64,000 nucleotides of DNA from Bacteroidales bacterium. GTDB lineage: Bacteria > Bacteroidota > Bacteroidia > Bacteroidales > Tenuifilaceae. Shown here piece by piece: positions 12,287 to 34,747 of the stretch. The first letter of the stretch is position 1. Every line of letters starts with the position of its first letter. Position numbers and translations under genes: made by a program. The stretch is from the NCBI GenBank assembly GCA_016931855.1, contig JAFGDZ010000052.1:1-64000 (forward strand), in the 5' to 3' direction. The notes under the pieces were generated by a model, which was given only the letters and a program-made list of their open reading frames with translations, had not been told where the DNA came from and did no database searches.

Positions 12287-12315
12287 ATATCCGTAAGGGT
12301 TTTATATCTAGCTTT

Positions 12316-17140: not shown

Positions 17141-17151
17141 GCAATAAAGAG

Positions 17152-17179: not shown

Positions 17180-17183
17180 CCTT

Positions 17184-18017: not shown

Positions 18018-18098
18018 ACCTAAGAGTTCTGATAATATGGCACGAAGATATGGAGAATGTGGAGCCGTTATTCTCCCAAAAAGGTGTTAAAAAGCAAA

Positions 18099-18129
18099 CG
18101 CGCCATTATCGAGAATAGATAATGGCGCG
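18099..18129 (-). terminator. Strong hairpin, likely terminator of the DUF805 gene
   Basis: Perfect 12-bp stem CGCGCCATTATC / GATAATGGCGCG with a 7-base loop. On the minus strand it is followed by a T-rich stretch. Confidence 0.75.
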
Positions 18130-18173
18130 GTACTATGAAAAAGAGAGTGCTTGGCACCCCTTACAAAATATAA

Positions 18174-18530: not shown

Positions 18531-18653
18531 AACAATAGCGATTAAAGAATCCTACTCATTTGGCTTTTCGGTTACGCCCCGTTTGTATAGTTGTTTCTGG
18601 ACTCAACGTTTATATATCAATTTTACATCTTTTTTTCCACAAAATGAATAGTT

Positions 18654-18681
18654 TACAAAAAAGGCTGCCAAAAGCAGCCTG
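18654..18681 (-). terminator. Terminator of the SusC-like receptor unit
   Basis: Stem AGGCTGC / GCAGCCT, A run on the left (T run on the minus strand), directly after the stop codon at 18689. Confidence 0.8.
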
Positions 18682-18688
18682 AAAATTT

Positions 18689-19213
18689 CTATATCGATTC
18701 GCCCCGTAAGTAAAGAACCGTATCGGGGGTTACCTTTCGTATGGCCTCAACCACGCGATTAATCTCGCTAAGCTGATGCTGAATGCGCTCATCGTCATTC
18801 TCAAAGCCAATAAACTCATTGTAGCGCTGCAGCATATCGGTGGGAACGGTTATGGCCTCTAGCTTTGGCAGAATAACCTCCTTGTAATCGAAATCTATAA
18901 AACGGGCGTACTCCTCACGTTTAAGCAACTTAGCAATCAGCGGCATGTACTTCTCGTCGGTAAGGTCGATGCTGTACTTATCGTTAAACATGTTGGCCAT
19001 ATCAAAGAGGTAAAGAAAGCCTTCGGCCTCAAAGCTGTCGTGTAGTGAAGTGCTCTTCTCAACAAACTCCTCAAAAACATCCTCGTAGGCGGTTTTGGTG
19101 AGCAGCCCAAACAGCTTGCGCTTTTGGTATGGGCGGGGCTGAAGAGCCTGCTCAAGGTCAGCCATCTTATCCTTTGCAACAAATCGGAGCTCTGCAATAA
19201 TATCGATATCCAT
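18689..19213 (-). CDS. Hypothetical protein, 174 residues
   Basis: No family recognised. The protein is soluble, acidic and mostly helical, with no signal peptide or membrane segment. It has a positively charged short stretch at about 27-33 (RPYQKRK) and an otherwise Glu/Asp-rich body, ending in LRGESI. It is the last gene of an apparent three-gene unit behind a SusC-like receptor and a small lipoprotein, with a gap of only 24 bases to the gene upstream. A cytoplasmic protein in third place of such a unit is unusual. Coding is supported by length, codon pattern and the terminator after it. Confidence 0.6.
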   Translation of the reverse strand: MDIDIIAELRFVAKDKMADLEQALQPRPYQKRKLFGLLTKTAYEDVFEEFVEKSTSLHDSFEAEGFLYLFDMANMFNDKYSIDLTDEKYMPLIAKLLKREEYARFIDFDYKEVILPKLEAITVPTDMLQRYNEFIGFENDDERIQHQLSEINRVVEAIRKVTPDTVLYLRGESI

Positions 19214-19236
19214 GATTCAGGTTAGTTATTTGTAAA

Positions 19237-19863
19237 TCACTTTTTAATGTTTGTGTACTCCCTGCTGCGGTTAAGCAACGAGTCGTATTTTGCCACAATA
19301 TTAGCTAAGATTTTCGCATTTGGACGTTCATTTTGCTGATAGTTATGCATCATTGGTTCTGTTACAACAAGCTTCATTATTAGCTCTGTATCCTGTAGCA
19401 TACGCTTTCTGGCGTCAATCTCTTTTTCCTTCTCGTTGTGAAGTTCCATCCTTTTACTATACGATTTCTCCAAAGCGCCAAAAATATCGCGCAGCTCCTT
19501 TTGGTACAACGTATCGGATATTTGATTGATATGGCTGGTCACACTAATCCAATACATATCCATGGTTGAAGTGTACCTATTGAACTTGGCCAAGCTATCG
19601 TTTACAGCATCGTCCATTCCGTTTATCTCATTCACAAGGGCTTTTAGGTTAGGATCTTTATCCTGTGCCTCGCTAAAAAGCTTATCAATAATGCTATAGC
19701 CACTGCGCTTTGAGTAAGAGGTAACATCAACTTTGTTATCTTCTAACACGGCTGGGGTTTCACCAACATTTTCCGCTACAGGATTTGCTTTGTCATTAGT
19801 GGTACATGAAGCAAAAAATAGGGCCAAAACAAAGAGTTTACCTGCTAATGCTATGTGTTTCAT
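19237..19863 (-). CDS. Hypothetical lipoprotein, coiled-coil rich
   Basis: A 208-residue protein with a lipoprotein signal (LFVLALFFASCTTN, Cys 20). The mature part is helical, with long stretches rich in Lys/Glu/Asn and likely coiled coil at about 75-190. No domain family recognised. It follows the SusC-like receptor by 20 bases and precedes the 174-residue hypothetical gene by 24 bases, so all three are probably co-transcribed. It does not resemble SusD, which would be longer (about 500 residues) and carry TPR-like helices. Confidence 0.65.
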   Translation of the reverse strand: MKHIALAGKLFVLALFFASCTTNDKANPVAENVGETPAVLEDNKVDVTSYSKRSGYSIIDKLFSEAQDKDPNLKALVNEINGMDDAVNDSLAKFNRYTSTMDMYWISVTSHINQISDTLYQKELRDIFGALEKSYSKRMELHNEKEKEIDARKRMLQDTELIMKLVVTEPMMHNYQQNERPNAKILANIVAKYDSLLNRSREYTNIKK

Positions 19864-19883
19864 AACTGAATTGGGGATTTAGG

Positions 19884-22424
19884 TTAAATGCCGATACTAA
19901 CACCAACAATAAACGAACGGGATAATGGATATACACTATAATTATCGATACCTGTGCTGTATCCTGCGGGATCTAATCCGCTGTAACTTGTTATAGTAAA
20001 TAGGTTATTTGCACCAATGTAGAACCTATAGCTCTCGCCCCACTTTACATTTTTAGGTTTAAGAGTGTAACTAACCGTAACATTATCAAGACGAAGATAA
20101 GACGCGTCTTCTAAGTACTGGTTAGAAAGAAATGTGTTGTGGTAACCATTACGAGCATTCGATAGTCCTTCTCTATTTATATTATGAGTAGGGAAATAAT
20201 CTGCATTGCTTAAATCAAGGCGCGTTACGTTATATATGCTATACCCCCCAGCATACCGAAACTTAAAAAAGCACTCAATACCATTAGTAAACTTAATGGT
20301 GTTAGCCCAACCCAGTTCATAACGAGGAATATATTGCCCCATCTCTTCAAATTTTGCTAAATCAGTGTTGCTGGTTTTTCCTCCACTTTCGGTATAAAAC
20401 AGGGGCCAGCCATCGGCTCTATACTCACCCGTAAACCTTGGTAAATAGAACTGAGTTGAGCTTCCCTCCTTAATTATTTGGGTATATTCGCTAGAACCAC
20501 GGTAATATGTTTGTCCGCTCTTAGTACGCCTATCCTTCGTTTCAACCAGTTTATTGGCATTACCAAATAAAGTAACTATTGAGATCCATTCTAGTTTATT
20601 CGTTTTAACAGGCACTGTATTTAGCAAAATCTCAAATCCACTATTATTATACCAAGTACTATTACCAGAAACAAAAGGGAGCTGGTTTGGAGGCATTGGC
20701 ACAGTTATCAGTCCTACTGCATTTTTTGCATCTTTAATGTAATAGGTAAAGCTACCTCCAACACGGTTTTTGAGTATTGAAAAATCAAAACCAAAGGAAA
20801 GTTCCGTTGCCGTTTCAACCTTTAGTGAATCTATGGATGCTTCAGCCATGTGATATGCATAATAATCGGCATAATAATTACCGGTAATGCCATATCCTAA
20901 TCTAAGTTTCAAACTATTTACATTCGCGTTATTTCTTAAAAAAGCCTCCTGCTTTAAGTCCCAACCCAAGCTTAGGGCATAAAATAGGTTTGATCTATCA
21001 AGAGTGTTTTCTGGACCACTATACCTAAAACTAGTTTTAGAAAACTCCTTATTCAATAAAGCACCAATAGAGTAACGCTGTAAATAAGCATAGGAGGCCT
21101 TGGCATAAATTGACTGACTACTAAACTCAGAATAGTATTCAAGATCGAACCCATAGGCAAGCCCATCTAGTTCGTTACTATACATTCTATTACTAAAACC
21201 TAAGCTAACATCTATATTGCTAGTAGCAAAAATCTGCTTACTATAACTAGCACTTAAATCTATATTGGTTTTAGTCTTATCCGTTATTACTTTATTATAT
21301 GTATTAGAACCAGAACCGTTGTATGCCTCAGGGGCTTGCAAATAGTTAAGGTCCGAGTTGTTATTACTATAACCAAAAGTAGCGTTTGTAACCAAATCAT
21401 TGGATATACGATAGCTAGCACCAATCCCAACATTAGCAAAGGAATTGGTCTCTATGTTTGATGTATGCTCTATTATAGCCATTGGATTATAGTAGGCAAA
21501 ATCTCTCATACTCTGATAGTAATCACCTTGATCGTTATACACAGGATCGGTTGTGTTTCTTTTAAAAGCTTGGTAAAAAAGATTTTTAGGTTGAGATTCA
21601 GCAGCATACGATGGCAATATGGTTGATTCAAAACGAGCAAAGGAACCATTTAGCCTAACATCCAACTTGTTTTTTAAGGCTTTTTGAGCGAGGCTTAACG
21701 TTACTCCAGAGCCTTCTCTTCCTGAGCTAATTACAATTCCGGGATTAGTTTGGTGAGTTAAAGACACACGATAGCGCGTGTTACTCAATTTTCCTGAAAG
21801 AGAAAGATTATAACTCTGTGAAATTGAACTTCTAAAGATTTCATCCTGCCAATCGGTACTTGCTCCACCATCAAAAAAACCAGTCAAATTATTCTCGGTA
21901 ACGTAAGAACGTAGCTCTTTTGCCGATAATAAATCATGGCGCTTGGATGTGCTATTCAACGATAGAAAGGAGTTAAAATCAACTTTTAACTTTTTATTTG
22001 AATCGCCTATTTTAGTATTGATTATAATAACACCATCCATACCCTGTCCGCCGTAGAGAGCGGTTTCTGTGGCATCTTTAAGAATTACAATGCTTGCAAT
22101 ATCATCAGGATGCAGATAGGATATATCAGTACTATAAATACCATCAACAATAAATAGAACACCCAAAGAGAAATCACTAGACTTGCCTCTAATTACGGGA
22201 GAGTTAGAAACAGTTGGATCGCTACCCTTCTTGGTAAAACTAACGCCAACAGCCTCGGCTTGGAGCAAGTAAGAAAAATCGGAAACGCCTTTTTGATTCG
22301 ATTCACCAATTTTTATTACCTGATTATAGTTTGTTGTACCAACTATTGAATCGTTTTTTTCCTGAGCAGTAGCGTTAAACATCATCGCGGATAGGCAAGA
22401 AAGGCCTAAAAAAAGTCTTTTCAT
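19884..22424 (-). CDS. SusC/RagA-like TonB-dependent receptor without N-terminal carboxypeptidase-like domain
   Basis: An 846-residue outer-membrane TonB-linked transporter. After a signal peptide ending TAQEK, a plug domain (about 35-150) has the typical VLFIVDGIYSTDISYLHPDDI and IVILKDATETALYGGQGMDGVIIINTK stretches. The rest is a 22-strand barrel, closing with FIVGVSIGI. It lacks the 80-residue CarboxypepD_reg-like domain that opens most SusC proteins and is shorter than the usual 1000 residues. No SusD gene is adjacent; instead two unknown proteins follow. It is likely a nutrient importer of unknown substrate. Confidence 0.82.
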   Translation of the reverse strand: MKRLFLGLSCLSAMMFNATAQEKNDSIVGTTNYNQVIKIGESNQKGVSDFSYLLQAEAVGVSFTKKGSDPTVSNSPVIRGKSSDFSLGVLFIVDGIYSTDISYLHPDDIASIVILKDATETALYGGQGMDGVIIINTKIGDSNKKLKVDFNSFLSLNSTSKRHDLLSAKELRSYVTENNLTGFFDGGASTDWQDEIFRSSISQSYNLSLSGKLSNTRYRVSLTHQTNPGIVISSGREGSGVTLSLAQKALKNKLDVRLNGSFARFESTILPSYAAESQPKNLFYQAFKRNTTDPVYNDQGDYYQSMRDFAYYNPMAIIEHTSNIETNSFANVGIGASYRISNDLVTNATFGYSNNNSDLNYLQAPEAYNGSGSNTYNKVITDKTKTNIDLSASYSKQIFATSNIDVSLGFSNRMYSNELDGLAYGFDLEYYSEFSSQSIYAKASYAYLQRYSIGALLNKEFSKTSFRYSGPENTLDRSNLFYALSLGWDLKQEAFLRNNANVNSLKLRLGYGITGNYYADYYAYHMAEASIDSLKVETATELSFGFDFSILKNRVGGSFTYYIKDAKNAVGLITVPMPPNQLPFVSGNSTWYNNSGFEILLNTVPVKTNKLEWISIVTLFGNANKLVETKDRRTKSGQTYYRGSSEYTQIIKEGSSTQFYLPRFTGEYRADGWPLFYTESGGKTSNTDLAKFEEMGQYIPRYELGWANTIKFTNGIECFFKFRYAGGYSIYNVTRLDLSNADYFPTHNINREGLSNARNGYHNTFLSNQYLEDASYLRLDNVTVSYTLKPKNVKWGESYRFYIGANNLFTITSYSGLDPAGYSTGIDNYSVYPLSRSFIVGVSIGI

Positions 22425-22579
22425 TAGTTCTGTTTAATGATTTATTCCGTCTAATCTTTTTCTGTGAGATACAAAAACCTACCAAAAGTAGAAAAGATTA
22501 AAGTGTTATCAACCGTTTTCTTACATTTATTACCCTGAAAATTAGTATTTATAAAACATACATTTACACTTCACTAGCA

Positions 22580-22753
22580 ATGTTTAGTCTTGCAACCCGA
22601 TGGCTTAGCCAGTTTGCCTACCAAACCAACTTAAACTGGTGGTTCTACACCATTGGGATAGTACTATCGGCAGTTGTAATAGTGTTTACCATAACCGCTG
22701 GGGCATTAAATGCGGGTAAAGCCAATCCAGTGGAGGTTCTAAAAACGGAGTAA
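22580..22753 (+). pseudogene. Remnant of FtsX/MacB permease, C-terminal 57 residues
   Basis: An open frame of 58 codons, too short to be a full gene, whose translation is the C-terminal end of an ABC permease of the MacB type: a last membrane helix followed by the diagnostic ending ANPVEVLKTE, matching NPAETVRVQD and NPAEAVRYE of the two intact permeases in this window. It has RWLSQFAYQTNL before the helix, as in family members. The upstream sequence shows no more of the gene. It is a relic of deletion. Confidence 0.75.
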
Positions 22754-22792
22754 CCCAGCTATAATTTCGCCTGTATAAGCTTGTAAATAAAC

Positions 22793-22885
22793 CGCAGGCT
22801 GGAGCCTGCAAGAATAGTCCGACGGTGGCAAAGCCAACCGCCGAACGCGGTAATTAAGAGATGTGGAGCGTCTGGAAACTATAGC
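22793..22885. repeat. Degenerate intergenic repeat, copy A
   Basis: Sequence resembling 25130-25200: both start CCGCA(A/G), have CTGCAAGA(A/T)TAGTC and end in AA-rich ATGT(A/G)G. This copy carries an extra 16 bases and internal palindromic pieces (GCAGGCTGGAGCCTGC). Copies are diverged, so the homology is moderate. Confidence 0.55.
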
Positions 22886-22933
22886 CTCAGGCTAACAGGG
22901 AGAACGGGGAAATATAGAGCATCTGACGAACTG

Positions 22934-22966
22934 GGGTGTCCAAAAGTAACGGACACCCTCTTTTTA
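22934..22966 (+). terminator. Plus-strand terminator-like hairpin
   Basis: Stem GGGTGTCC / GGACACCC, 9-base loop, then CTCTTTTT. The only plus-strand gene upstream is the relic at 22580-22753, so it could be the old terminator. Confidence 0.65.
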
Positions 22967-23029
22967 TATGTACACACCTGAACTGGTCTTAATGTACTCA
23001 ATCAACGGAAGGTAAGTGGATTATAGGAT

Positions 23030-24724
23030 TTAGTTCGGGTCCTGACCAATGTCGCCTAAGGCACACGATATAAATGTATTTCCTGTGCCCGTAACCGAAC
23101 AGTTTTTATCAAGGTAGATTCCCCAACCAGAGGATGATTGGAACTTAGAGTTTGAGGCAATAAAGCTTGTTCCTGTGGCATGAACCGCAGACCGCCTTAA
23201 ATCGCTTCCCTTTCCGGCAAAGTTAAACTCACAGTAATCGAACTTGGTATTTGGTAAGTTGTTCCACCATAGCTGTATTCCGTACCAAGCACCAGCAACA
23301 GGAGATGCGGCTGAACTCGAAAAGATAATTGGCTCGGTAAGGGTGCCAATAGCGGTAAGCTGCGCATTGCTACTATACCCAATATCTATTTGCCCATCGG
23401 CACCAAATAGCATAACCGTTCCAGCCTCAATGGTAAGGTTAGCATTGATATTAATCCCAACATTTATATAGTAAGGAACGGTTTGCTTACCCCAGGTTGA
23501 CGTTGCGGTAACATCGCCATCGGTAACACTAATGCCATAGCCCGTGTTGCAGGTGAACGTATTGTTTAAACCAATAGTGCCAAGCCTTTCGCTATCCATC
23601 TGCAGGGCATGTAATGCAATGTGTTCAACAATGTTATTGGACATGGAGGTAAAATAGGAATCACCACTCATCACTATTCCAATTGAAGAGGAGTTGTGAA
23701 TTCTACAATTGTTCAATGCAAAGCTTGCATCAACAGCATTTAATGCTCCCGTGGACGATTTCCCTGCAAAGTTTACCTCGCAGTAGCTCATGCTTGAGCT
23801 GGCTAGGGTGTTCCACCAGAATGCGATGCCTTGCCATGCACCAGCAGCAGGCACGGGGGCGCTTGAGGTAAATACAATATTTTCTGTTTCGGTACCATTG
23901 GCAACAAGGGTTGTTGAGCCGCTATACCCAAGGCTCAATTTACCATCGGCATTGAACTTGAACACAGCCCCAGGCTCAATGGTTAGCGTGGCGTTGTTTA
24001 CATTGATGTTGCCCTCCACATAATAGGGTTTATCCAACTTTTTCCATGTTACAGTCCCTGCCACATCGTCAGCAATAACGTTAACACCAAAGCCATCGGC
24101 ACTATTGAATACATTACTTTCGCCAATGGTGTGCAAGTAAGCGGCATAAAGTCTAACGGGATGCTTACCACAGTTGCTAAACTGGTTATGGTTCATCTCG
24201 GTAAACCACGAGCCTTGGTCTAGTTCAATACCATAATCCTTAGCGTAGGAAATTTGGTTGTTACTAAATATTAAGGATGTGCCAATTAGCTGAACTGCAC
24301 CATCGGAGGTTCTACCAGCATACTCAATTTTACAGTAGGTCATGCTGGAATTCATATTGTTGTTCCAGAAATAGATTCCATTCCATGCCCCTGCGCTGGG
24401 AATGGCAGCATTAGAGGTGAAAACAATGGGCTTATCGGCTGTTCCGTTTGCTATTAGCGTTGAGTTCTCCGAGTATCCAATGGATAGCTGTGCCCCCGAT
24501 TCAAACTTAATGGTTGTTCCGGGCTCAATGGTAAGAATAGCCCCACTCACATTTATTGTTCCCGAAATAATGTAGGTTTTCCCAGTGCTCCAAGTGGTAT
24601 TGGTGACAATGTCGTTCTCAATTAGATTCCCGGTGTTGTCATCTGGTTCATCGGTTAGCTCCTCGCAGGAGATTGTGCCCAGAACAAGTGCAAGTGCAAG
24701 TAAAGTCCTGACAGTTTTTTTCAT
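23030..24724 (-). CDS. Lipoprotein with three tandem beta-helix repeats
   Basis: A 564-residue secreted lipoprotein (signal ending LVLGTISCEEL, Cys 20). The mature part is made of three related units of about 175 residues beginning near 48, 227 and 406. Each opens with TW-x-x-G/x-(K/V)-PYYI-like residues, then an INVNNATLTIEPG stretch, a GYS-x-x-(S/A)-x-L-(V/T)-A-x-GT stretch, then IVFTSSAxxPxAGAWxGI and FAGK(S/G)S. This is the pattern of right-handed parallel beta-helix proteins. No catalytic site of a pectate lyase type is seen, so an adhesin or binding role is inferred. It is flanked by gene-poor repeat-rich DNA and stands alone. Confidence 0.75.
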   Translation of the reverse strand: MKKTVRTLLALALVLGTISCEELTDEPDDNTGNLIENDIVTNTTWSTGKTYIISGTINVSGAILTIEPGTTIKFESGAQLSIGYSENSTLIANGTADKPIVFTSNAAIPSAGAWNGIYFWNNNMNSSMTYCKIEYAGRTSDGAVQLIGTSLIFSNNQISYAKDYGIELDQGSWFTEMNHNQFSNCGKHPVRLYAAYLHTIGESNVFNSADGFGVNVIADDVAGTVTWKKLDKPYYVEGNINVNNATLTIEPGAVFKFNADGKLSLGYSGSTTLVANGTETENIVFTSSAPVPAAGAWQGIAFWWNTLASSSMSYCEVNFAGKSSTGALNAVDASFALNNCRIHNSSSIGIVMSGDSYFTSMSNNIVEHIALHALQMDSERLGTIGLNNTFTCNTGYGISVTDGDVTATSTWGKQTVPYYINVGININANLTIEAGTVMLFGADGQIDIGYSSNAQLTAIGTLTEPIIFSSSAASPVAGAWYGIQLWWNNLPNTKFDYCEFNFAGKGSDLRRSAVHATGTSFIASNSKFQSSSGWGIYLDKNCSVTGTGNTFISCALGDIGQDPN

Positions 24725-25129
24725 GGCAAAAGGTTTTTATTGTGAAACTAATAGCCTTACATAAACCAAAGGTACTGTTGTGTTTAAGGAGAGGTTTACC
24801 CCCAAAAAGGGGTTTTTATGGTAGGAGCCTAATTCTAAAAAGCTAAATACAACACGCTAATAGAAACCGAAAAATTTAGAATGCAATTAGCAGAACTATG
24901 GCTATTCTCGTTGCTGCCATTAGCACCCAAAAACCAAGATGAGAATTATGAACTGTAGTGCATATGGCAAACGGATTATTCCCCCAACTGCTGCTGCACG
25001 TAACCAAATTTAGCAAAAAAAGGAGCCGTTACTTTCTCTTTTTTAGGTTATTGCAGAAACAATGGTCAAAATGTTTTCTGGTGGTTGGAATGGTATAGTG
25101 ATGGAGATAGATGACTAAAGATTGTACTG

Positions 25130-25200
25130 TTAGCCGCAAGTTGGAACCTGCAAGATTAGTCAACCACCGAACTCGGAAATTCAAGAATGTAGTGCATTGG
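25130..25200. repeat. Degenerate intergenic repeat, copy B
   Basis: Diverged copy of 22793-22885 with the same order of short blocks but lacking 16 central bases. Confidence 0.55.
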
Positions 25201-25346
25201 GGAACGAGGTATGAATAAACTTATGACAAATGGGGCGTTGCCCCAAACCCCACTCACTTTCTTGGTTGCCTCACACCTTACAGGTGCTCAGCGAACTCGC
25301 CACAAAACGGCTCGGTTGAAACAAGAAAGTAAGCAAAGAAATTCAA

Positions 25347-25411
25347 GTCTCGTTCTTAAACGAGACTGCCTCGCTCGAAAAACTACGCGATGTCTCGTTT
25401 CGGAACGAGAC
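25347..25411. repeat. Twin 20-nt palindromes
   Basis: GTCTCGTT-CTTA-AACGAGAC at 25347-25366 and GTCTCGTT-TCGG-AACGAGAC at 25392-25411. Stems are identical, loops differ. Spaced by 45 bases. Confidence 0.85.
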
Positions 25412-25925
25412 TCCTTCGCAAAGAACGCTCGGTCGCAAAATCTGAACTCGTACTTCCCTACGGTCAGTACTCAAACAGCAGATTTTTTTAAACGACCGCT
25501 GTGCTTGTTTTTCGGCTCACCAGCCGATGCCGAGGGTTAACTAATAGTCAACAGTTCCCCTGTATTTGTAATGATTAAGTGATGAAGATAGATTACGAAT
25601 AAAAGTGCGTATTCATAGGGTGTGGCGAACAGAAATGCTCCGCGCAAACTTGCGGTGAGCTTGCCAAACCAATGATTTAAACTGTTTTTTTTGAGGAATA
25701 GCCACTACTGCCACAGTAGTAGCCCTGAATTACCTTGCCTAGGCTGCCGCACGAACCGAGCGTACTGTGCGAGCTCGGCAAAGCCAGTCCTCTCGTGTGG
25801 CTTTGCGATAGCAAAACTCTTAAAACTAAGTAAGCGCAGCCAACCGAGGACGAAGGACAAACTCAGCGAAGCCAATTCAACGACTTCCTATATTCTTTTG
25901 CTGCGCAAAGTCACACGATACAATT

Positions 25926-25971
25926 GTGCGACAGCGGGGAGTTCAGTGTAACTAATCGTGCGACAGCGGGG
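25926..25971. repeat. Direct repeat of 14 bases
   Basis: GTGCGACAGCGGGG occurs twice, 32 bases apart, just after the 3' end of the outer-membrane receptor gene of the RiPP locus. Confidence 0.75.
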
Positions 25972-25988
25972 CAAAATTAACTGAAGGT

Positions 25989-28310
25989 TTAATTAACTCT
26001 ACTGCCTTGCTCTGATTCTCCATATTCTTTATATTGGCTTTTAAAATTATTAAATACATATCGAATTGTGAGTTTAAATCGCCTAGTGTCGTAGTTACTA
26101 TTATTATAGCTTTCGTAGTACCCCATTTTGTCGCGCAAAGGAGGATTTGTTTTGTTAAATAGATCCGTAGCACTTGCAACAATTTGCACCCTACGTTTAT
26201 AGAGAAACTGAGAGAAATTAATAGATAAATCGTACCCAGGTTCTCCTACTGCCATTAGTAAAGAATTTTTTGAACCGTAATCGTAATTCAAATTTAAATA
26301 CGTGTTTCTAGATATTCTAAATTCAGGAGTTATTCTAAAATAGTATGACACAATATTATTTTTATAATAACCATCCATGTAAGGTATTTTATAGTTCGGA
26401 ACAACTAGCATTGAACTGGCTGATAATGAAAAGATATTCCATTTATTACCATAAGAAAGCATAACATTAAAATCGTTCGCACGAGATATATTCACTGGCG
26501 TAAAAGTAATACTTTCTTTACTCTCAGACAAAATCCCTGTTTCGAGGTTACTGTTTAAGGCAATATTATAATCCAAATCAAGACTCAACCTCTCCCACAT
26601 CGTAAAGTTTAAACATATATTATGGTCTGTTGTAGATATCAGATTAGGATTACCTTGCCATACGGTAACCTTATTCATATAAGATTTTGATGGATTTAAA
26701 TTGTTTAGCGATGGACGAGTAGTTTTAATTGCATAATTAAGTGAAATTTCTAAATTGTCCAACGGTTCGTTTAAGTATAACTCTATTGATGGAAATAATT
26801 TATTCTCTATTCTACTTGCCACCTTGTCTTCTGAAAGCACTAACTTATCATTAAGATATTCATAGCGAAGCCCAACTTCATAACCCCACGTTTCATAGTT
26901 GTTACCAAATGTGGAGTATAGTGAGAATAAATGACTCGTGGTGTTTACTTTTGATAGATAACCATCACTTTCTATTTTGCTTCTATTATTGATAAAACCA
27001 TAATTCACTCCTGCCATAAAACTTGAATTGGCAATCAGAGTGGTGTATTCAGAACGAAAACTTGCTACATCAGCATTGTTCTGATTGTTTATCTTAAATA
27101 TCGTAATATTATTATTTTCTGCATTATACTGTTCTATATTTTGCTCTTTATTTCTACTAACAAATGAATAATCCCCAAATATTTCAAGTTTATTGATTGA
27201 GTCAAAATCCATTTGGTAGCCCACATTAAATTTATGACGAGGGTTTGTACTAATACTATTTATAGATGAGGAAATATTTTCAGTGAGCATTGCTGCTCTA
27301 TCTATTGTTTCGTAAACAAATTGATCCGCATTAGCATCTCTAAAGTCTAGGCTGTACTGCCAAGAGAGTTTACTCCTCGAAGATGTGTTTAAGATGCTAT
27401 TGTAAAAGAGGTTTGCATTTGTTCGCTTTTCTAGAGAGTTCGTTAGTGAGTTATCTTTCATAGCATACTCAGGTAGAATTATACTTTGATTAAATTCGCT
27501 CTTAGTTTTGTACCAAGGCGTTGCATAATTTAGCCCTAAGAATGTATATAGCTTTGGAGTGTTAATTTGCAACTGGCCTCCAGTGTAAGGGCTTACCCTG
27601 TGCGCCACGTCAACTCCTGCATTGAATCTCCCAGAGATACCTTTAGCCGATCGTAACGTTTTTACACGCACTACAGCCTTTGCAGATGCTTCGTAACGTG
27701 CTGAAGCATTGCGGTCTACTTCTATGGAAAGTATATTGGCTGGTTCCAATACTTTTAATTGCGAATAAGTAGACTGTATGTCATCAATATAAATCAAGGG
27801 GGTGCCTCTTCCCATTACCATAAGTTCACTTTCACTGGCTTTAACTCCGGGTGCCCTACCCATAATTGATGATATATCTGCAAGATTGGCAAGAGATGAA
27901 CCCGCAATTTGCAATATGATTTTCCCTTTTCCAATTCTTATTGCTTCGCGTGTACTCACTACCACAACTTCACCTATTTGTATGGTAGCAGCGTGCATAA
28001 CTATTGTATCGGGATAAGATAGATTATCAAAATCGAGGTTAAGCAAATAATCTTTGTAACCAAGGCTTGTGATAGCCATAAGTTTGTGCCCCGAAGTATT
28101 GATTTTGTACTCCAAATTACCATTATAAAAAACTTCACCAAATTGATAGGTCGAATCAGATGGGTCCGATAAAATGAAATTAAAATAGTCAAGAGGCTGA
28201 TTGTATTCATCCACAACAAAGATATTAATGTGGCTTTGTTGAGCATAAAGCGTTATGCCAATGCACAGCAGTGTCGCAGAAAGAACAATTTTAGTTAAAG
28301 TATTATTCAT
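25989..28310 (-). CDS. TonB-dependent outer-membrane beta-barrel receptor of the RiPP locus
   Basis: A 773-residue outer-membrane protein with a signal peptide ending TLYAQQ. Residues about 25-105 form a carboxypeptidase-regulatory-like beta-sandwich (INIFVVDEYNQPLDYFNF, TSLGYKDYLL), about 108-225 a plug with GEVVVVSTREAIRIGKGKIILQIAGSSLANLADI and MVMGRGTPLIYIDDI, and the rest is the OMP_b-brl_3 type barrel. It is the last gene of the set precursor, radical SAM enzyme 2, radical SAM enzyme 1, receptor, on the same strand, 129 bases after the second enzyme. It may import or export the peptide, or import a chelated ion in the manner of a siderophore receptor. Function is not proven. Confidence 0.72.
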   Translation of the reverse strand: MNNTLTKIVLSATLLCIGITLYAQQSHINIFVVDEYNQPLDYFNFILSDPSDSTYQFGEVFYNGNLEYKINTSGHKLMAITSLGYKDYLLNLDFDNLSYPDTIVMHAATIQIGEVVVVSTREAIRIGKGKIILQIAGSSLANLADISSIMGRAPGVKASESELMVMGRGTPLIYIDDIQSTYSQLKVLEPANILSIEVDRNASARYEASAKAVVRVKTLRSAKGISGRFNAGVDVAHRVSPYTGGQLQINTPKLYTFLGLNYATPWYKTKSEFNQSIILPEYAMKDNSLTNSLEKRTNANLFYNSILNTSSRSKLSWQYSLDFRDANADQFVYETIDRAAMLTENISSSINSISTNPRHKFNVGYQMDFDSINKLEIFGDYSFVSRNKEQNIEQYNAENNNITIFKINNQNNADVASFRSEYTTLIANSSFMAGVNYGFINNRSKIESDGYLSKVNTTSHLFSLYSTFGNNYETWGYEVGLRYEYLNDKLVLSEDKVASRIENKLFPSIELYLNEPLDNLEISLNYAIKTTRPSLNNLNPSKSYMNKVTVWQGNPNLISTTDHNICLNFTMWERLSLDLDYNIALNSNLETGILSESKESITFTPVNISRANDFNVMLSYGNKWNIFSLSASSMLVVPNYKIPYMDGYYKNNIVSYYFRITPEFRISRNTYLNLNYDYGSKNSLLMAVGEPGYDLSINFSQFLYKRRVQIVASATDLFNKTNPPLRDKMGYYESYNNSNYDTRRFKLTIRYVFNNFKSQYKEYGESEQGSRVN

Positions 28311-28439
28311 GAAAATGATAGGGTGTGTTGTTGTTAAGGGTTTAACTTATTTTCAGAAGATCATAAAGTGATTATTTTAGCAGATATTGGACATCAAATT
28401 AAGTTCAAACTTGTCATAGAAATAGATAGGCGGTTTTCT

Positions 28440-29861
28440 TTATTGAAGGAAATTATCTGGGGTAATCTCTCCTCTTTGAATCATATCTATAATCTCAGGC
28501 ACCATCCTTTTGACATACAAACACATAATCGATGGTTGCTCAAAAGAATTATTAGCAAAAAAGGACTCAGAAGCGCAATTATATGAACAAATCCTTTTCC
28601 ATAAACATTCTTTGCATTCTTTGATATTATCAAGACTTTGATTCTGTAGTGCCTTAACCACAGGGTGGCTAACTAGATGCTTTTTGATATCAAAAATTTC
28701 GTAAATATTTCCTAAACAAAATCTGTCATCAGAAATAAAGTCATCACATGGATAAATTGAACCATCTACATCAAATGATAATACTGAAGAACCTGCTCCA
28801 CAAGGAAGTGTTTTGCATAATCCATTTCTATTCCATGATGAAATATTGTTAATTAATTTTGATAATTCCCTTTGCACCACATATTGCTTTACATTAGAGA
28901 GTTTACTATTTATCGAGTTTATCTTTCTAATTAGTTCAAGATTAGTCTCAACTAAATCATCAATGTCAATAATATGACTCGCATTTGAACCTCTGCCAGC
29001 TGGAATAAATTGGTTAAACCCAAAGTACCTAACGCCTCTTTGCACGTAAAAATCAAATATACTAAGGAGCTCTCTCTGATTATGTTCTGTGATCACGCTT
29101 AACAGACCAACCTTTACTCCTGCAGAACGAAGTCGTTCAATGCCCCTTAATGATTCATTAATAGAGCCATTACCGTTAGGATCTAAGCGAAGACAGTTGG
29201 TTCTCTCATCAAATCCATCTACACTAACACCTACTTCTATATTTTGTTCTTTTACAAACGTTGCAAATTCGTCGGTTATTAGCGTAGCGTTTGTTTGTAA
29301 GGTTATGTCAATTTTATCCGAGATTCTTTTTATATCTTCTACAACAGATCTCAGATTTCTCATTTTTAAAAGTGGCTCACCACCATGCAGACACACGCAA
29401 TACTCCTTATCACCATATGCATTAATGATTTTCTTCAATACATATATTAGTGTGTCGTTACTCATTGATGATGACCCACAGTTACTCTTATTCCAAGCAT
29501 AACAGTAAGAGCATCTCAAATTACATTGATTAGTATATTTGAAAATTAACAAATATGGGGATTTTATCGTATTACAACACTTGATTAACGAACTATCTTT
29601 TACTAGCAATTGCCCATTTACTCTCAAAACGCCCTGCGAGAATAACAATTTTAACAAATCCAAATCAATCTCATACCGTTTTTTATATTCATCTAATGTT
29701 ATTCCTGCGAACAAAGCATCAATTATATGTGACTTTGATTTGCAAACTGTAGCCCATGAGCCGTATTCCTTTTGAATAATAAGGTTGTATTTTCTATTTG
29801 GATCGATAATTACCTCCGCTCCCTTAATATCAAAATAATTACGAGTTTTAATTTTGTCCAT
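28440..29861 (-). CDS. Radical SAM/SPASM peptide maturase 1 of the RiPP locus
   Basis: A 473-residue radical SAM enzyme. The [4Fe-4S] site for SAM is CNLRCSYC (Cys 113, 117, 120), followed by LHGGEPLL (about 157-164). The C-terminal SPASM domain (about 345-450) carries the seven-cysteine pattern: CGAG, YPCDD, FCLGN, CKECLWKRICSYNC and MCLY, for two auxiliary clusters. The N-terminal 90 residues (GAEVIIDPNRKYNLIIQKE) resemble a leader-binding or regulatory segment. The family includes PqqE, AlbA, sulfatase maturases and triceptide synthases, so the enzyme probably cross-links the precursor at 31775-31957. A 255-base gap precedes it. Confidence 0.88.
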   Translation of the reverse strand: MDKIKTRNYFDIKGAEVIIDPNRKYNLIIQKEYGSWATVCKSKSHIIDALFAGITLDEYKKRYEIDLDLLKLLFSQGVLRVNGQLLVKDSSLIKCCNTIKSPYLLIFKYTNQCNLRCSYCYAWNKSNCGSSSMSNDTLIYVLKKIINAYGDKEYCVCLHGGEPLLKMRNLRSVVEDIKRISDKIDITLQTNATLITDEFATFVKEQNIEVGVSVDGFDERTNCLRLDPNGNGSINESLRGIERLRSAGVKVGLLSVITEHNQRELLSIFDFYVQRGVRYFGFNQFIPAGRGSNASHIIDIDDLVETNLELIRKINSINSKLSNVKQYVVQRELSKLINNISSWNRNGLCKTLPCGAGSSVLSFDVDGSIYPCDDFISDDRFCLGNIYEIFDIKKHLVSHPVVKALQNQSLDNIKECKECLWKRICSYNCASESFFANNSFEQPSIMCLYVKRMVPEIIDMIQRGEITPDNFLQ

Positions 29862-30116
29862 GATTAAATACTGGTTGACACTAAGTTAAAATTTACGTTT
29901 TCTTAATTCTTTGTTCAAAGAAGACGTTAAACTATACGGAATAATCTTTCATGATACAGACCTCCTTCATTTTTACTCAAACTTTCTTCACATTATTTTA
30001 CTGTTTATCATACGATTAGTATTTAAATCGCCAAAAGTTTAAACTAGTTTGAACCTCAGAATACTTTAATAACCAACGATCTATCATAAATTAAAAATTC
30101 AAGCTCAACAAAAGAT
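29862..30116. other. Gap between the two radical SAM genes
   Basis: 255 bases, AT-rich. On the minus strand it holds an unusually strong ribosome binding site (AAGGAGG, 29961-29967) and a six-codon frame MKDYSV (29952-29932). Otherwise nothing is recognised. Confidence 0.5.
29932..29967 (-). other. Strong Shine-Dalgarno site plus 6-codon mini-ORF
   Basis: The sequence AAGGAGGT, rare for the phylum, sits 7 bases ahead of an ATG that opens a frame of only 6 codons ending in TAG. It lies about 70 bases before the start of radical SAM enzyme 1. It could be a leader peptide, translation coupling device or decayed precursor gene. Confidence 0.4.
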
Positions 30117-31400
30117 TTACAATCTTGATTCGCAGTATTCAATAAGCAGTTTACTCATCTCATTACTTGGATCAGAATGCATACACGATATATTTCCATT
30201 CGACTTTATCATTTTGCTTCTTTTAACACAGCATGGGCCTAAGCAAATAGGTAGATATTTGCAGTTTCTGCACTGAGACTTCGTATTGAAAATAGTATTA
30301 TCATGCTTCTCATTCCCCCAAACAATATCTCCATTGTCACTGATAATTCCTTTAGCTTCGCTTAATTCAATATTAGAGCACTTGTCAACTGCCCCATTAT
30401 GGAAAATCGTATTGTAATAAACCGTATCCGTATAGCAAGAAATACATGTATCTAAAATATCAGCGTCATTAATCAAATATCCACTTTTTCTGAAATCAGC
30501 CATAATTTGTTTGATAATACGGAAATCTATATCGTCACTGTCAATTTGCCACACTTTTTTCGCAACAATCTGTATTTTTTTTCTATAACCATTAGGTATG
30601 TAGCGATTAATATCTTCTACGATGCTAGACGCATTAATATTCTTATCTGAATAATTAAACCGTATCGTGATGTATGATTCTGAATATGTGTCAAGAACTC
30701 TGGTGATATTAGATAAAATTTTACTGAATGATGGTTGTCCGTCTTGAGATCGTATTGTATTGTGGTGGGCTTCATCACCATCAATTGTAATTACAATTTT
30801 TTCCAATTGAATATCCTTTAGTTGATTGACAACATTTGGCGTCAACAGATAACCATTTGTTGTTATATCATTGAAGAACTTTAGTTTGTTGTCAATACAA
30901 ATCTTTTGTACATATTTTGATATAGGCTTAATGCACTCCTCAAAATAGAGCAACGGTTCTCCTCCGAACCATGATAATTCAATTGCCTTTATTGGATATA
31001 CTTTGACTATTTTACTTAAATGTTTTTTTATTCTGTTCATTGTTTCTGAACTCATATACTCTTCCACATGTTTTTGAACGCAGTACCAACAATCGAAGTT
31101 ACAATGGTAGGTCGGCAGGATCATTAAACTGTATATCCCGTTGTTTATTGCCCGTTCATATCGTGTTTTAATTATTTCATATTCATCACATCCATTATCC
31201 ACAATGAATCCGGAGTTTACTAATTTATCAACAATTCCTTTAAATCTATTATCACAATATAAATTGGGATTATTGATCATGTGCTCGTAAGCTTTGCGCT
31301 TTTGATTGTCAATAAGAAAAAAGCGTTTAGAAATACCATTTATCACAAGAACCTTATTGTCATTATATGGTACAATATAATTATATTTGCTCGATTTCAT
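30117..31400 (-). CDS. Radical SAM/SPASM peptide maturase 2 of the RiPP locus
   Basis: A 427-residue radical SAM enzyme counted from the ATG at 31400 (MKSSKYNYIVPYNDNKVLV); the open frame extends 12 codons upstream without an expected N-terminus. Residues 1-80 resemble the start of Bacteroidota peptide maturases, followed by the SAM cluster motif CNFDCWYC (Cys 100, 104, 107), SWFGGEPLLY (about 146-155) and ITIDGDEAHHN. The C-terminal SPASM-like cysteines are CISCY, DKCSN and CRNCKYLPICLGPCCVKR. It is only about 26 % similar in feel to the other maturase, so the two probably do different jobs. It follows the precursor gene, with a terminator-like structure in between. Confidence 0.85.
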   Translation of the reverse strand: MKSSKYNYIVPYNDNKVLVINGISKRFFLIDNQKRKAYEHMINNPNLYCDNRFKGIVDKLVNSGFIVDNGCDEYEIIKTRYERAINNGIYSLMILPTYHCNFDCWYCVQKHVEEYMSSETMNRIKKHLSKIVKVYPIKAIELSWFGGEPLLYFEECIKPISKYVQKICIDNKLKFFNDITTNGYLLTPNVVNQLKDIQLEKIVITIDGDEAHHNTIRSQDGQPSFSKILSNITRVLDTYSESYITIRFNYSDKNINASSIVEDINRYIPNGYRKKIQIVAKKVWQIDSDDIDFRIIKQIMADFRKSGYLINDADILDTCISCYTDTVYYNTIFHNGAVDKCSNIELSEAKGIISDNGDIVWGNEKHDNTIFNTKSQCRNCKYLPICLGPCCVKRSKMIKSNGNISCMHSDPSNEMSKLLIEYCESRL

Positions 31401-31774
31401 AAAACATAATGTTAGAAGATTAATTTGGAAGTGCAAATCTAGGTTAGTTCAGACCGATTCTAGTTTACATTTTTTTCAAGGATGTTATCCTCAGAATACT
31501 TATGTTGGTATTATGACGATGTACTATAACGATTTTCGATGTCTTAATTATGTAATTTTAACTACTTTAGCCAATCGCTTTTTAAAATCACCTACATATT
31601 TTATTATGAGCCGTATTCATTTTTCTGAGTTTTTTCGAATAACACTAAAAAAGCTTAGACAATTAACTTAAATAAAAACATAGAGAGTATTTAAATCAAA
31701 AGTCTAAGCCAATCATTAATTTTTAGGTATTAAGATACAATTTTGGTGCCTCTATAAACCTACGTCAATTTTCA
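31401..31774. other. Gap between precursor and maturase 2
   Basis: AT-rich, 374 bases. A large inverted repeat (31653-31660 with 31702-31709) is described separately. A plus-strand frame at 31387-31671 shows no features of a protein and is not called. Confidence 0.5.
31646..31709 (-). terminator. Terminator-like hairpin downstream of the precursor gene
   Basis: Read on the minus strand: GCTTAGAC, a loop of 41 bases with inner pairing (TTAAATA / TATTTAA), GTCTAAGC, then TTTTTT. The position, 66 bases after the precursor stop, fits a leaky terminator that would make more precursor than enzyme transcript. Confidence 0.65.
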
Positions 31775-31957
31775 CTATTTGCACCATCTTCTTTTCCATT
31801 TTATAGCCTTCGACCAATTAGCATCGGATTCGGGTTCGAGTTCAGTGTCATCTTCTAATTCATCAATAGCACCTCCGATAATTAGTCCCGTTTCTTCATT
31901 GGTCATCGCATTCCATTCAGATAATGCCTCTTCGTTAATTGTTTGTTTCTTTTTCAT
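31775..31957 (-). CDS. RiPP precursor peptide, Gly-Gly leader type
   Basis: A 60-residue peptide. It starts MKKKQTINEEALSEWNAM and has a leader ending ETGLIIGG (Gly 28-29), like the double-glycine leaders of Bacteroidales natural-product precursors. A very acidic linker (residues 30-46, DELEDDTELEPESD) precedes the C-terminal core NWSKAIKWKRRWCK, which is strongly basic and holds Trp 48, 54 and 58, each in a Trp-X-(Lys/Arg) triplet, and one Cys. Darobactin's core WNWSKSF shares the NWSK segment, where W and K are cross-linked. Two radical SAM/SPASM enzymes follow. No other copy of the precursor was found. The product is inferred, not known. Confidence 0.82.
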   Translation of the reverse strand: MKKKQTINEEALSEWNAMTNEETGLIIGGAIDELEDDTELEPESDANWSKAIKWKRRWCK

Positions 31958-32093
31958 TGTAATTTTGCTTTAAATTTTCCTACTCTATTTGAGGTTTTTC
32001 GGTTCCACCTATTTTCTTACTATAGCGCAAATTAATGTTTTTTTACTTCGTATCTTATGAACTTGAGCAATTATGTTGTTTAACGTTCAAAAG

Positions 32094-32124
32094 CAAAAAT
32101 ATATCATTTAGCATTAACCACAAA
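32094..32124 (-). promoter_or_regulatory. Probable promoter of the RiPP operon
   Basis: On the minus strand TTTG (ending 32121), a 19-base spacer and TATTTTTG (32101-32094) match the Bacteroidota consensus closely. The transcript would start about 130 bases ahead of the precursor ATG, leaving a long 5' leader. Confidence 0.65.
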
Positions 32125-32184
32125 AAAATTCCTTAACGCCTGTTTAGATTTTTTAATCATCATAAAAACGGAAGCGAGAAGTTC

Positions 32185-32828
32185 CTATGCTTTGCTGGGT
32201 TCCATGTTCACTTGGTAATCCCAGCTAAGCCGCCTAAACCATGAGAGCCAGACAATGCTTCGCTCAACAACCCACCTCTGTGGAATAACCTTAAAACCAG
32301 TCTCTTCGCTGCGGGTTACCACTTCGAATTTGGCGAGCCGCCTTGTAGCCCCCATCGCCAAGCAGCAGCTTGAGTTGCGGGAATTGCCCCTTCATCCGCT
32401 TAATTACTCGCTCCGCAGCGGTGCTATCGTGCTCATTTGCTGGGGTGACCACTACGCATAGCAGCAGGCCCCTTGATCTTCTTGTTACCGTCGTACCCCT
32501 TATCGGGGATGCCCCACTCGCTATTCTTTACCGACTGGGAGTCTATTATGCCCATGCTGGGACAGGTGTTCCGCCCGAGCTGCTCGCGAATCCTCGCTTG
32601 GACTCGCTGTAGTGTACCATCAATCAGCCACTTCCTGAAGTAGTAATACACGGTGCTCCACTTCCCGAACTCGCAGGGTAACAGGCACCATGGGCAACCG
32701 CTTCGCGCTTGGTAGTGAATCCCATCCCAAACCCGACGCAGCGATGTTTGCCGCTTACGCTTGTCCTTAAGGATTTTATTTATACATTGCCACTGGCTAT
32801 TGGTTAGGTTGGTAGGGTAACTTTGCAC
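32185..32828 (-). pseudogene. Decayed IS5-family transposase
   Basis: The 5' part (32828-32433) reads as an intact N-terminal half: MQSYPTNLTNSQWQ, GCPWCLLPCEFGKWSTVYYYFRKW, and the first DDE element GIIDSQSVKNSEWG...GYDGNKKIKG. After that the frame breaks. A piece with GDGGYKAARQIR is found in another frame and a further piece, VIPQRWVVERSIVWLSWFRRLSWDY, in a third, ending at 32185. At least two frameshifts or small deletions separate them, so no active enzyme can be made. Terminal inverted repeats could not be recognised. Confidence 0.85.
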
Positions 32829-33061
32829 GGCTTGTTCTTTTATGGTTATTAGCGCAAGCTCGTTCTTTTTTATCTCTCTAGCTAATCAATAGCCTTATTT
32901 TTAGCATACTAATTTTAAACAGGCTCTTAATATTGCATGTACCCAAACATACAAAAAAAATCCCTTCATTATCCCCTCAACTTTAATTTACTGCAAAAAA
33001 GCGCCCCCCAACAGCAGAGCCGTTGGGGGGCGTTTATTGGGTTACCAATGGTTTGCTTGGG
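32829..33061. other. Intergenic region with terminator
   Basis: AT-rich, nothing coding. The terminator of the M2-like peptidase gene lies at 32994-33036. Confidence 0.5.
32994..33036 (-). terminator. Terminator of the M2-like peptidase gene
   Basis: Perfect 11-bp stem CGCCCCCCAAC / GTTGGGGGGCG; the run of A on the left gives the T run on the minus strand. Confidence 0.9.
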
Positions 33062-34747
33062 TTACTTTACAAACTGCATTGAGTAGTACTTGGCGGTTAG
33101 CTTCTCGCCGGTGGCGCGCTCAATCATCTCGCTCCAGTGGTAGCGCATACCGGGCATAAATACCTTCTCCTTTAGGTAGGTTCCCACTTCGGGTTTGCCT
33201 ACAAAGCTAATGGCATCAACATTGGCGGCACCTAGCACGTTCTGCGCAATGTAGTAGTGCAGCTGCGAGGCCAAAAGCTCACCCATTAGGTAGTTGTGGT
33301 AGTAGCAAGGGTAAAGGGCTACGTGTATTTTGGTTGCCCAGTCGGGCTCGTTGCGGCCTTCGGGCTTTTTAAGCATCTGGTACTTCTCAACAAGGCTCCA
33401 CCAAAGGGCGTTTAGGTCCTGGTCGGGGTTGGCGTACATGGCCTTCTCAAAGCGGTACATTACCTGTGCCCAGCGGCTAAAGGTTAGCTGCTCCAATTTA
33501 AAGGCGTTGTAGGCATCGGCGGTAATGGCCTCGCGCTCCTGGGCGGTAATAATGCCCATATCCAGCATCCACTGTGGGCTACCAGCGCAGCGGCCAAAAA
33601 TCATGGCAATGGCCTCGGTGGTAAAGCTGTGGGCGGCATCGCGAAGGAAGTAGGGTAGCTCTGGGTTGTTGTACTTGGCGTAAACGGCATGGCCAAACTC
33701 GTGTAGGTTGGTGTTCATCCAGCCGTAGGTTGGCTTAAGGTTGCAAAGTACGCGCACATCGCCGCTGCGGTCAATATCGGTGCAGTATGCGTGCTGGTTC
33801 TTGCCGGGCTTCTCGTATAGGTCGGAGCTGGCCACTAGGTCGTCAACGCCAATGCCAATGCCGTTAAAGAAGGTGGCGGTTAGGGCTGATATGTCCTTAT
33901 CGGCGTAGTACTTATCAAGGTCAACGCTGTAAATTTTTGGAGCCTCTTGGAAGTAGCGGTTCTGGTAGTGCCAAGGCATAAGCTTCTCCTTGCTAATGCC
34001 GTAGCGCTTGGCAAGGTAAGCGTCAATCTCGCCCTTAAGGGCAGCAAAAGCATCGCGGGTAAGGTTATCGAGCTCATCAAAAAGGGCCTCAATCTCGTCG
34101 GGGTTCTGCTCCGATAGCGAAAGCGACATCACCTGGTAGTTATCGAAACCAAGGCTTTGCGCAATGGCGTTGCGCTGCTTAACCAGCTCAACCACATCGG
34201 CAGCCACTACCTGACCAATGCGCTTGTGCGCGTTCCAAGCCATCTCTAGCTCCTTTGAGTTTTTTGAGTCGCCTAGGATACCCTCAATGTCGTTATCGGT
34301 AAGCGATTTGCCGTTAACCTCGGCTCTGAAGTTTGAGTACTTCTTCTCTAGGTTGGTCTCCATCTTTATAACGGCCTCTAGTAGCGCCGCAGGAACCTGA
34401 TTGCGAAGGAATCCGGAGTAAAGCACATCTAGCTGACGGGCAAGAAGTGAGTCCTTTACGTTGCCCTCGTCCTTTAGCTGCTTTAGCTGGGCAAAGCGAA
34501 CAGAATCGGAGAACACCTCGGTTAGCTTAAGGCGAATCTCCTCGGATTTGGTGTAATCGGCATCGTTACCAGTGATAGATGCATCCCAGCTGGCAATGGC
34601 CGCTTCAATGTTCATGGGCTTAACCTCGGCCTCAAAGGCAGTGATAAACTCCTTTAGCTGCGTTTCGGCCTTTTGCTGTGGCGTTTGACAGCCACCAAGC
34701 ACTAGTAGTGCAAGTGCTGACATAGCAAAAATTGATTTTGTTTTCAT
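33062..34747 (-). CDS. M2 (ACE-like) family metallopeptidase, lipoprotein
   Basis: A 561-residue zinc dipeptidyl carboxypeptidase-like enzyme. Signal sequence with lipobox LLVLGGCQT (Cys 20). The zinc motif LHEFGHAVYAKY is at about 345-356, with the third ligand Glu in HSFTTEAIAMIFG (about 371-383), the arrangement of the M2 family. Preceding helices (AQSLGFDNYQVMSLS and the TDIDRSGDVRVLCNLKPTYGWM stretch) also fit. Such bacterial ACE homologues release C-terminal dipeptides from peptides. It is monocistronic with a -7 element upstream and a strong terminator downstream. M3 is the other possible assignment, since the families share a fold. Confidence 0.82.
   Translation of the reverse strand: MKTKSIFAMSALALLVLGGCQTPQQKAETQLKEFITAFEAEVKPMNIEAAIASWDASITGNDADYTKSEEIRLKLTEVFSDSVRFAQLKQLKDEGNVKDSLLARQLDVLYSGFLRNQVPAALLEAVIKMETNLEKKYSNFRAEVNGKSLTDNDIEGILGDSKNSKELEMAWNAHKRIGQVVAADVVELVKQRNAIAQSLGFDNYQVMSLSLSEQNPDEIEALFDELDNLTRDAFAALKGEIDAYLAKRYGISKEKLMPWHYQNRYFQEAPKIYSVDLDKYYADKDISALTATFFNGIGIGVDDLVASSDLYEKPGKNQHAYCTDIDRSGDVRVLCNLKPTYGWMNTNLHEFGHAVYAKYNNPELPYFLRDAAHSFTTEAIAMIFGRCAGSPQWMLDMGIITAQEREAITADAYNAFKLEQLTFSRWAQVMYRFEKAMYANPDQDLNALWWSLVEKYQMLKKPEGRNEPDWATKIHVALYPCYYHNYLMGELLASQLHYYIAQNVLGAANVDAISFVGKPEVGTYLKEKVFMPGMRYHWSEMIERATGEKLTAKYYSMQFVK

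Follow-up and report, generated by a model that had tools for sequence, protein, structure and literature searches.

A four-gene set with a double-Gly precursor and two dissimilar radical SAM/SPASM enzymes in a Bacteroidales genome: a candidate variant RiPP cassette

A Bacteroidales bacterium of the family Tenuifilaceae (GenBank assembly GCA_016931855.1; 98% complete, 82 contigs) carries, on the minus strand of contig JAFGDZ010000052.1, a short peptide precursor gene followed in order by genes for two radical S-adenosylmethionine (SAM) enzymes, which we call rSAM1 and rSAM2, and by a gene for an outer-membrane beta-barrel protein. We analyzed this set within the first 64,000 nucleotides of the contig (the window). 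We consider it moderately probable that the set is a variant of the Bacteroidota double-Gly cassette for ribosomally synthesized and post-translationally modified peptides (RiPPs), equipped with a second maturase, and that its two enzymes share the one precursor as substrate; it may yield a cross-linked, Trp- and Lys-rich peptide. Judged from sequence, a precursor, an rSAM1-type enzyme, and an outer-membrane protein together are a recurring, already known kit of the group. What is unusual here is rSAM2 and the Trp/Lys-rich precursor core.

Gene content and precursor core

The open reading frames (ORFs) confirmed the description given in an earlier note on this DNA, namely, four genes lying on one strand in the order precursor, rSAM1, rSAM2, and barrel gene. 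We took rSAM1 to start at the ATG at 31400; the ORF list opens this frame at a TTG at 31436. The features, all on the minus strand, are as follows.

31775-31957, minus strand: precursor, 60 amino acids, with Gly-Gly at residues 28-29
31871-31957, minus strand: precursor leader, residues 1-29, Gly-Gly at its end
31775-31870, minus strand: precursor core, residues 30-60, plus stop codon
30117-31400, minus strand: rSAM1, radical SAM/SPASM-type maturase, 427 amino acids from the ATG
28440-29861, minus strand: rSAM2, radical SAM/SPASM enzyme, 473 amino acids
25989-28310, minus strand: OMP_b-brl_3 outer-membrane beta-barrel protein, 773 amino acids
32094-32124, minus strand: putative promoter TTTG-N19-TATTTTTG, a pattern match whose end lies 137 bases upstream of the precursor ATG
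32433-32828, minus strand: 5' part of an IS5-type transposase gene, a broken remnant bordering the set upstream, outside the pathway

In the gaps between the four genes, the sole other minus-strand ORF of at least 20 amino acids with an ATG start encodes 23 amino acids and lies at 30087. Position 32124, at which the earlier note ended the locus, is the first base of the TTTG-N19-TATTTTTG match, a pattern that we take to be the promoter form of the Bacteroidota. The −7 half of this promoter alone was not clearly above chance, with 6 occurrences seen against 4.3 in shuffled sequences.

The precursor has the sequence MKKKQTINEEALSEWNAMTNEETGLIIGG/AIDELEDDTELEPESDANWSKAIKWKRRWCK (slash added). Its core consists of an acidic stretch (net charge −9) followed by ANWSKAIKWKRRWCK (net charge +6) and contains one Cys, three Trp, and six Lys or Arg residues. 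Of 2000 dinucleotide-shuffled versions of the 784-base region upstream of rSAM1, 242 contained a same-strand ATG ORF of at least 50 amino acids and 4 contained one with a Gly-Gly leader-like site, so chance would seldom produce a precursor-like ORF. Within the leader, Glu at −8, Ile at −4, and Met at −12 agree with what we take to be the C39 leader pattern. A Lys or Arg stands at +2 from all three Trp residues, an arrangement that we found in 0.4% of sequences when the core was shuffled and in 4.3% when shuffling was confined to the basic tail. The precursor had no match in a plasmid search or in NCBIfam at an expectation value (E) of 1.

We then set this core beside 41 precursors (29 + 12), picked by eye, that lie next to rSAM1 homologues and contain 2 to 11 Cys and 0 to 2 Trp residues after the glycine site. 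By comparison with their sequences, the make-up of the window core appears unusual. The minimum of two Cys residues is true of the 41 and not of every candidate, since the omitted ones include L053 7156-7353 (one Cys, no Trp after Gly-Gly; the L numbers are our handles for retrieved loci). Also omitted, among others, were L064 9843-10037 (two Trp, four Cys), L050 5418-5648, L206 9074-9265, two L053 copies, and the L062 ORF beside that locus's other enzyme.

Usual partners of the first maturase

Both enzymes have an intact CX3CX2C motif, as the earlier note had read them, together with seven C-terminal Cys residues that are invariant in alignments of 15 rSAM1-type and 12 rSAM2-type rows. Pfam found Radical_SAM in both and its SPASM model in rSAM2 only. 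The best NCBIfam match of rSAM1, covering most of the protein, was TIGR04463, at 149.3 bits against a cutoff of 525. We therefore rejected membership in that family, the short name of which points to Cys-rich targets, whereas the window core has one Cys. Clo7bot (121 bits) and CefB (120 bits) followed, likewise below their cutoffs, and PapB, at 78.5 of 340 bits, was also rejected. TIGR04148, from the TIGR04148/TIGR04149/TIGR04150 GG-Bacteroidales system, was absent among the best 25 of 49 NCBIfam matches of rSAM1, and a search of Protein Data Bank (PDB) sequences at E 1e-5 returned nothing.

Homologues of rSAM1 were present in at least 22 of 295 genomes of the order (E 1e-20), in 7 of 27 genomes of the family (E 1e-15), and in at least 6 of 395 genomes of the class (E 1e-40), the host being included each time. 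The genome searches scored the best three to six first-look candidates per genome (up to six for rSAM1 in the order, five for rSAM2 in the order, four for rSAM2 in the phylum and rSAM1 in the class, and three for the barrel), and their counts are therefore lower bounds. All candidates were scored in the two family searches, for rSAM1 and rSAM2, and in the C39 search of the host genome.

We labeled the neighbors in the retrieved surroundings with profiles built for this analysis; several of the rSAM1 stretches end at contig ends. A Gly-Gly or Gly-Ser precursor candidate was counted at 22 of 30 rSAM1 places. Among the 27 rows of the rSAM1 tree that are full length and have features, a C39 transporter lies within 6 kb in 20 and an OMP_b-brl-type protein within 6 kb in 17, while three rows (L047, L050, and L056) have no C39, outer-membrane protein, HlyD, or S41 gene. 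The outer-membrane protein is thus a usual partner of rSAM1-type enzymes, and the earlier note's remark that the receptor was unusual did not hold. Its presence as the sole other member is not unusual either, as sets without C39 on the retrieved stretch recur (L038 and L203).

The window rSAM1 branches first with L038 (support 99/96) and then with L039 (98/95) in the tree; at both loci a barrel gene comes immediately after the radical SAM gene. In L039, a C39 gene lies within 6 kb. On the retrieved stretch of L038, the nearest relative locus, we found no C39 gene and no precursor, and this locus holds a broken radical SAM copy. L203, from the same family, has a precursor, a radical SAM gene, and a barrel gene with no C39, its contig ending 434 bases beyond the precursor. 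A Parabacteroides distasonis plasmid carries in a row two small ORFs, a radical SAM gene, an outer-membrane barrel gene, and a gene for a peptidase-domain ATP-binding cassette (ABC) transporter. A precursor, an rSAM1-type enzyme, and an outer-membrane protein form a recurring set, and the earlier note's assignment of the locus to the RiPP type was supported. The co-occurrence check that the note proposed separated the members: the precursor, the rSAM1 type, and the barrel type stay together, and rSAM2, as far as its sequence neighborhoods indicate, does not clearly belong to the rSAM1-type set.

A Peptidase_S41-type protein is encoded near the rSAM1 homologues of L035, L040, L042, L051, L059, L061, and L196, mostly where other loci have the barrel, and may carry out a processing step. 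The label comes from Pfam in L035 and L040 and from a profile built for this analysis in the other loci.

The barrel protein matched OMP_b-brl_3 of Pfam at 138 bits, in agreement with the type first assigned to it, and a TonB plug model at 19.2 bits against a cutoff of 23.9; a search of PDB sequences at E 0.001 returned nothing. The OMP_b-brl_3 family includes receptors. No C39 or HlyD gene lies in the gene set, and this missing transporter is a gap relative to the kit. The whole-genome search for C39 found one complete domain, at 3929-4297 of contig C49, in a gene that also has ABC parts, and a broken piece at the end of the same contig. Export in trans via the C49 transporter is plausible. 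Contig C49 carries a second RiPP locus of this genome (L035 1-8000), made up of a pair of Cys-rich precursors, a paralogue of rSAM1 with 37% identity, the S41-type protein, the C39 transporter, HlyD, and a PD-(D/E)XK gene.

A survey of Bacteroidales RiPP clusters describes double-Gly precursors with genes for radical SAM enzymes, peptidase-containing ABC transporters (PCATs), and outer-membrane proteins (Fernandez-Cantos et al. 2023, PMC10352776). BGC3 and BGC5 of that survey lack a PCAT, and BGC5 has two radical SAM genes. The window set is like these clusters in its Gly-Gly precursor, adjacent SPASM maturase, and OMP_b-brl protein; it differs in having no C39 transporter in the cluster, and none of the clusters described in the accessible portion of the survey resembles it in combining such a set with a Trp/Lys core.

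The second maturase

rSAM2 appears from its sequence to be dissimilar and unrelated to rSAM1, which upholds the earlier note's claim of two different maturases, and to have no close relatives in the searched genomes. Those that we found are 24 to 34% identical to it and occur in at least 25 of 295 genomes of the order (E 1e-25), at least 2 of 395 genomes of the phylum (E 1e-30), and 3 of 27 genomes of the family (E 1e-20), again with the host included. A scan of species genomes, which relies on exact short peptides and might overlook relatives, gave one locus with 24% identity; there were no relatives in one viral-contig scan.

All NCBIfam matches of rSAM2 fell below their cutoffs. The highest were PapB (159.9 bits of 340), CbpB (158), an anaerobic sulfatase maturase (148), DynA (141), and HxsB (140); the best models besides the sulfatase maturase thus scored 140 to 160 bits against cutoffs of 340 to 450. 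DarW scored 120 bits and DarE 104 bits (cutoff 650). We rejected membership in PapB, DarE, and DynA on these scores. Four families named as cyclophane forming are among the best 25 of the 93 matches, with DynA, DarW, and DarE also present there and TIGR04148 absent. The family scores do not fix the chemistry of rSAM1 or rSAM2. The best PDB sequence match of rSAM2 was an anaerobic sulfatase-maturating enzyme.

About 100 residues precede the radical SAM domain of rSAM2, as in maturases beside Gly-Gly ORFs (L167, L168, and L062); the shortest rows of the 12-row alignment are unlike rSAM2 in this N-terminal region. The structure predicted for rSAM2 alone had a mean predicted local distance difference test (pLDDT) score of 35.5. 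PADLOC gave viperin-type matches only, which covered the radical SAM domain of each enzyme (E 5e-13 to 3e-18), with a viperin-kinase model at 5e-6.

We viewed the neighborhoods of 10 of the 25 rSAM2 matches from the order and phylum other than its own. One, in L062, has an rSAM1 homologue about 4 kb away, and one, in L165, lies beside a different SPASM enzyme. L165 (5455-9827 in genome G103, of the same order) has an HxsB/HxsC-like pair and a FibroRumin-type SPASM enzyme, and its first enzyme is the best match of rSAM2 in the order search (24% identity). It resembles the window in that two dissimilar SPASM maturases accompany a small ORF rich in Trp (8181-8384; four Trp residues). Unlike the window, it has no outer-membrane protein or C39 gene on its stretch, and the ORF contains two Cys residues and no Gly-Gly. 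L044 (3246-7065) is a mixed system in which an rSAM1 homologue is followed directly by TIGR04148 and TIGR04150 genes. We set aside a Methylovirgula plasmid with an rSAM1-like gene near CbpB, as the two lie 2.2 kb apart with a ketoacyl synthase between them and CbpB has its own CbpA precursor.

The core contains Asn-Trp-Ser-Lys (NWSK), which it shares with darobactin, the core of which is WNWSKSF. This likeness in sequence is a lead. rSAM2 also matches the DarE model, below its cutoff; the window differs in having no DarBCD, a Gly-Gly leader, and two maturases. In darobactin, C6 of Trp3 is bonded to the C-beta of Lys5 (PMC9055067), and the word NWSK is present in PMC9055067 and PMC8694152. The window core has no Trp-x-Trp, and a Trp-O-Trp ether at Trp48 is not expected because no Trp lies two residues before it. 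The Streptococcus thermophilus Lys-Trp cyclase system differs from the window precursor in spacing and leader, and no model of that cyclase was among the matches listed. The cyclase, also a SPASM enzyme, cross-links Lys with Trp within a peptide (PMC5491770). Among the titles and abstract beginnings that the literature searches listed, none described such a set, a weak negative given their partial coverage.

Possible mechanism and competing explanations

If the set is a variant cassette, a second SPASM maturase would have been gained between the rSAM1 and barrel genes of a standard one. Most likely, rSAM2 would form carbon bonds between each Trp and the basic residue (Lys or Arg) at +2, with predicted rings at Trp48-Lys50, Trp54-Arg56, and Trp58-Lys60. 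Triceptides and other cyclophane RiPPs are marked by a ring of three residues that a carbon bond from an aromatic residue closes. rSAM1, the relatives of which go with Cys-rich cores, might form a single thioether at Cys59 or might have turned to the Trp/Lys tail. The leader would be cleaved at Gly-Gly by the C49 C39 transporter, the genome's one complete copy, and the barrel would help the product cross the outer membrane. In favor of this reading we count the company that rSAM1 homologues keep, the grouping with L038 and L039, the lone complete C39 domain near an rSAM1 paralogue, the make-up of the core with a basic residue at +2 from every Trp, the NWSK word, and the cyclophane-type NCBIfam matches of rSAM2. 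Two chemistries may in this way meet on one core, as the earlier note proposed. A fuller version, which we regard as quite unlikely in all its parts, is a hybrid RiPP in which rSAM2, as a member of an undescribed lineage, makes up to three Trp-x-Lys/Arg carbon-bonded rings in the 13-residue tail, the first of them a darobactin-like Trp-Ser-Lys, and rSAM1 adds the Cys59 thioether; the acidic stretch would mask the cationic product until processing, and any antibacterial activity would be directed at the outer membrane of rivals. Should both enzymes act on the 31-residue core, the set would be a minimal two-enzyme system that stacks different radical cross-links and possibly the Bacteroidota equivalent of the BamA-targeting peptides with Trp-Lys cross-links. 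It would show how a standard cassette may change, with the precursor, radical SAM enzyme, and barrel retained and a foreign maturase and a new core brought in.

Several observations weigh against the variant-cassette explanation. The intergenic gaps, which from precursor to barrel gene measure 374, 255, and 129 bases, make a single operon uncertain. The leader has Thr at −7, without the hydrophobic residue that we assume for the C39 pattern. We found no credible precursor homologue in the 27 family genomes (one other match, E 0.77), and in 208 order genomes there were four matches of E 0.01 to 0.07, all within longer frames. At 18 of the 26 places viewed (of 33 other than its own), the near relative of the barrel has no adjoining radical SAM gene, for which reason we rejected the barrel alone as a RiPP sign. 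Family does not set the chemistry of rSAM2, because PapB (160 bits) and the sulfatase maturase (148 bits) score at least as high as DynA (141 bits). In L062 (4557-11623), the PapB-like enzyme that matches rSAM2 and the rSAM1 homologue each lie behind their own Gly-Gly ORF, an arrangement that fits one enzyme per substrate and speaks for separate substrates. It may instead be that rSAM1 alone modifies the precursor and that rSAM2, having landed between rSAM1 and the barrel gene, matures a sulfatase or a peptide encoded elsewhere. The score with the sulfatase maturase family, the best PDB match, the gaps of 255 and 129 bases flanking rSAM2, the two separate precursors of L062, and the relatives in which a radical SAM gene and a barrel gene are adjacent without rSAM2 all favor this explanation. 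We nevertheless think it somewhat unlikely, as the N-terminal 100 or so residues of rSAM2 resemble those of maturases beside Gly-Gly ORFs, both enzymes and the barrel have strand and low G+C in common, and the core holds residues missing from the usual substrates of rSAM1.

The absence of a local C39 or HlyD gene bears on two other explanations. The cassette may be decaying or stranded, with its transporter lost, its core degenerate, and no product made. The upstream IS5 transposase remnant and the broken radical SAM copy in L038 would fit such a history, as would the tract from 17.2 to 33.0 kb, which looks inserted because the genes flanking it adjoin each other in two of six compared relatives. 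However, three large frames are open, all catalytic Cys residues are present, and sets without a nearby C39 gene recur in L038 and L203, and we judge decay to be improbable. The peptide might instead be a signal or cofactor precursor that is kept in the cell or read by a TonB-type barrel, which the weak plug match and the receptors in the barrel's family would suit. The Gly-Gly leader and the sharing of one cluster by barrel and C39 exporter in relatives argue against this, and we hold it to be very improbable.

The relatives compared for the tract were six of the seven that have the flanking peptidase gene; in the other four, this gene has different neighbors. G+C content is 31 to 37% in the four 1500-base steps covering 25501-31500, and other steps are mostly at 39 to 53%, with 36 to 38% at 19501-22500. 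Ranked from the lowest third-position G+C among 104 rows (a number that counts window bases 1-20000 twice, as L036 repeats them), rSAM2 is 1st, the barrel 3rd, and rSAM1 6th. Within 17144-33062, a 22-base inverted repeat lies at the left edge, and the IS5 remnant is near the right edge. Just downstream of the set, the interval 19884-24724 encodes two proteins, of which one is SusC/RagA-like (304 bits against a cutoff of 368) and the other is a right-handed beta-helix protein whose N terminus weakly matches NF053514.

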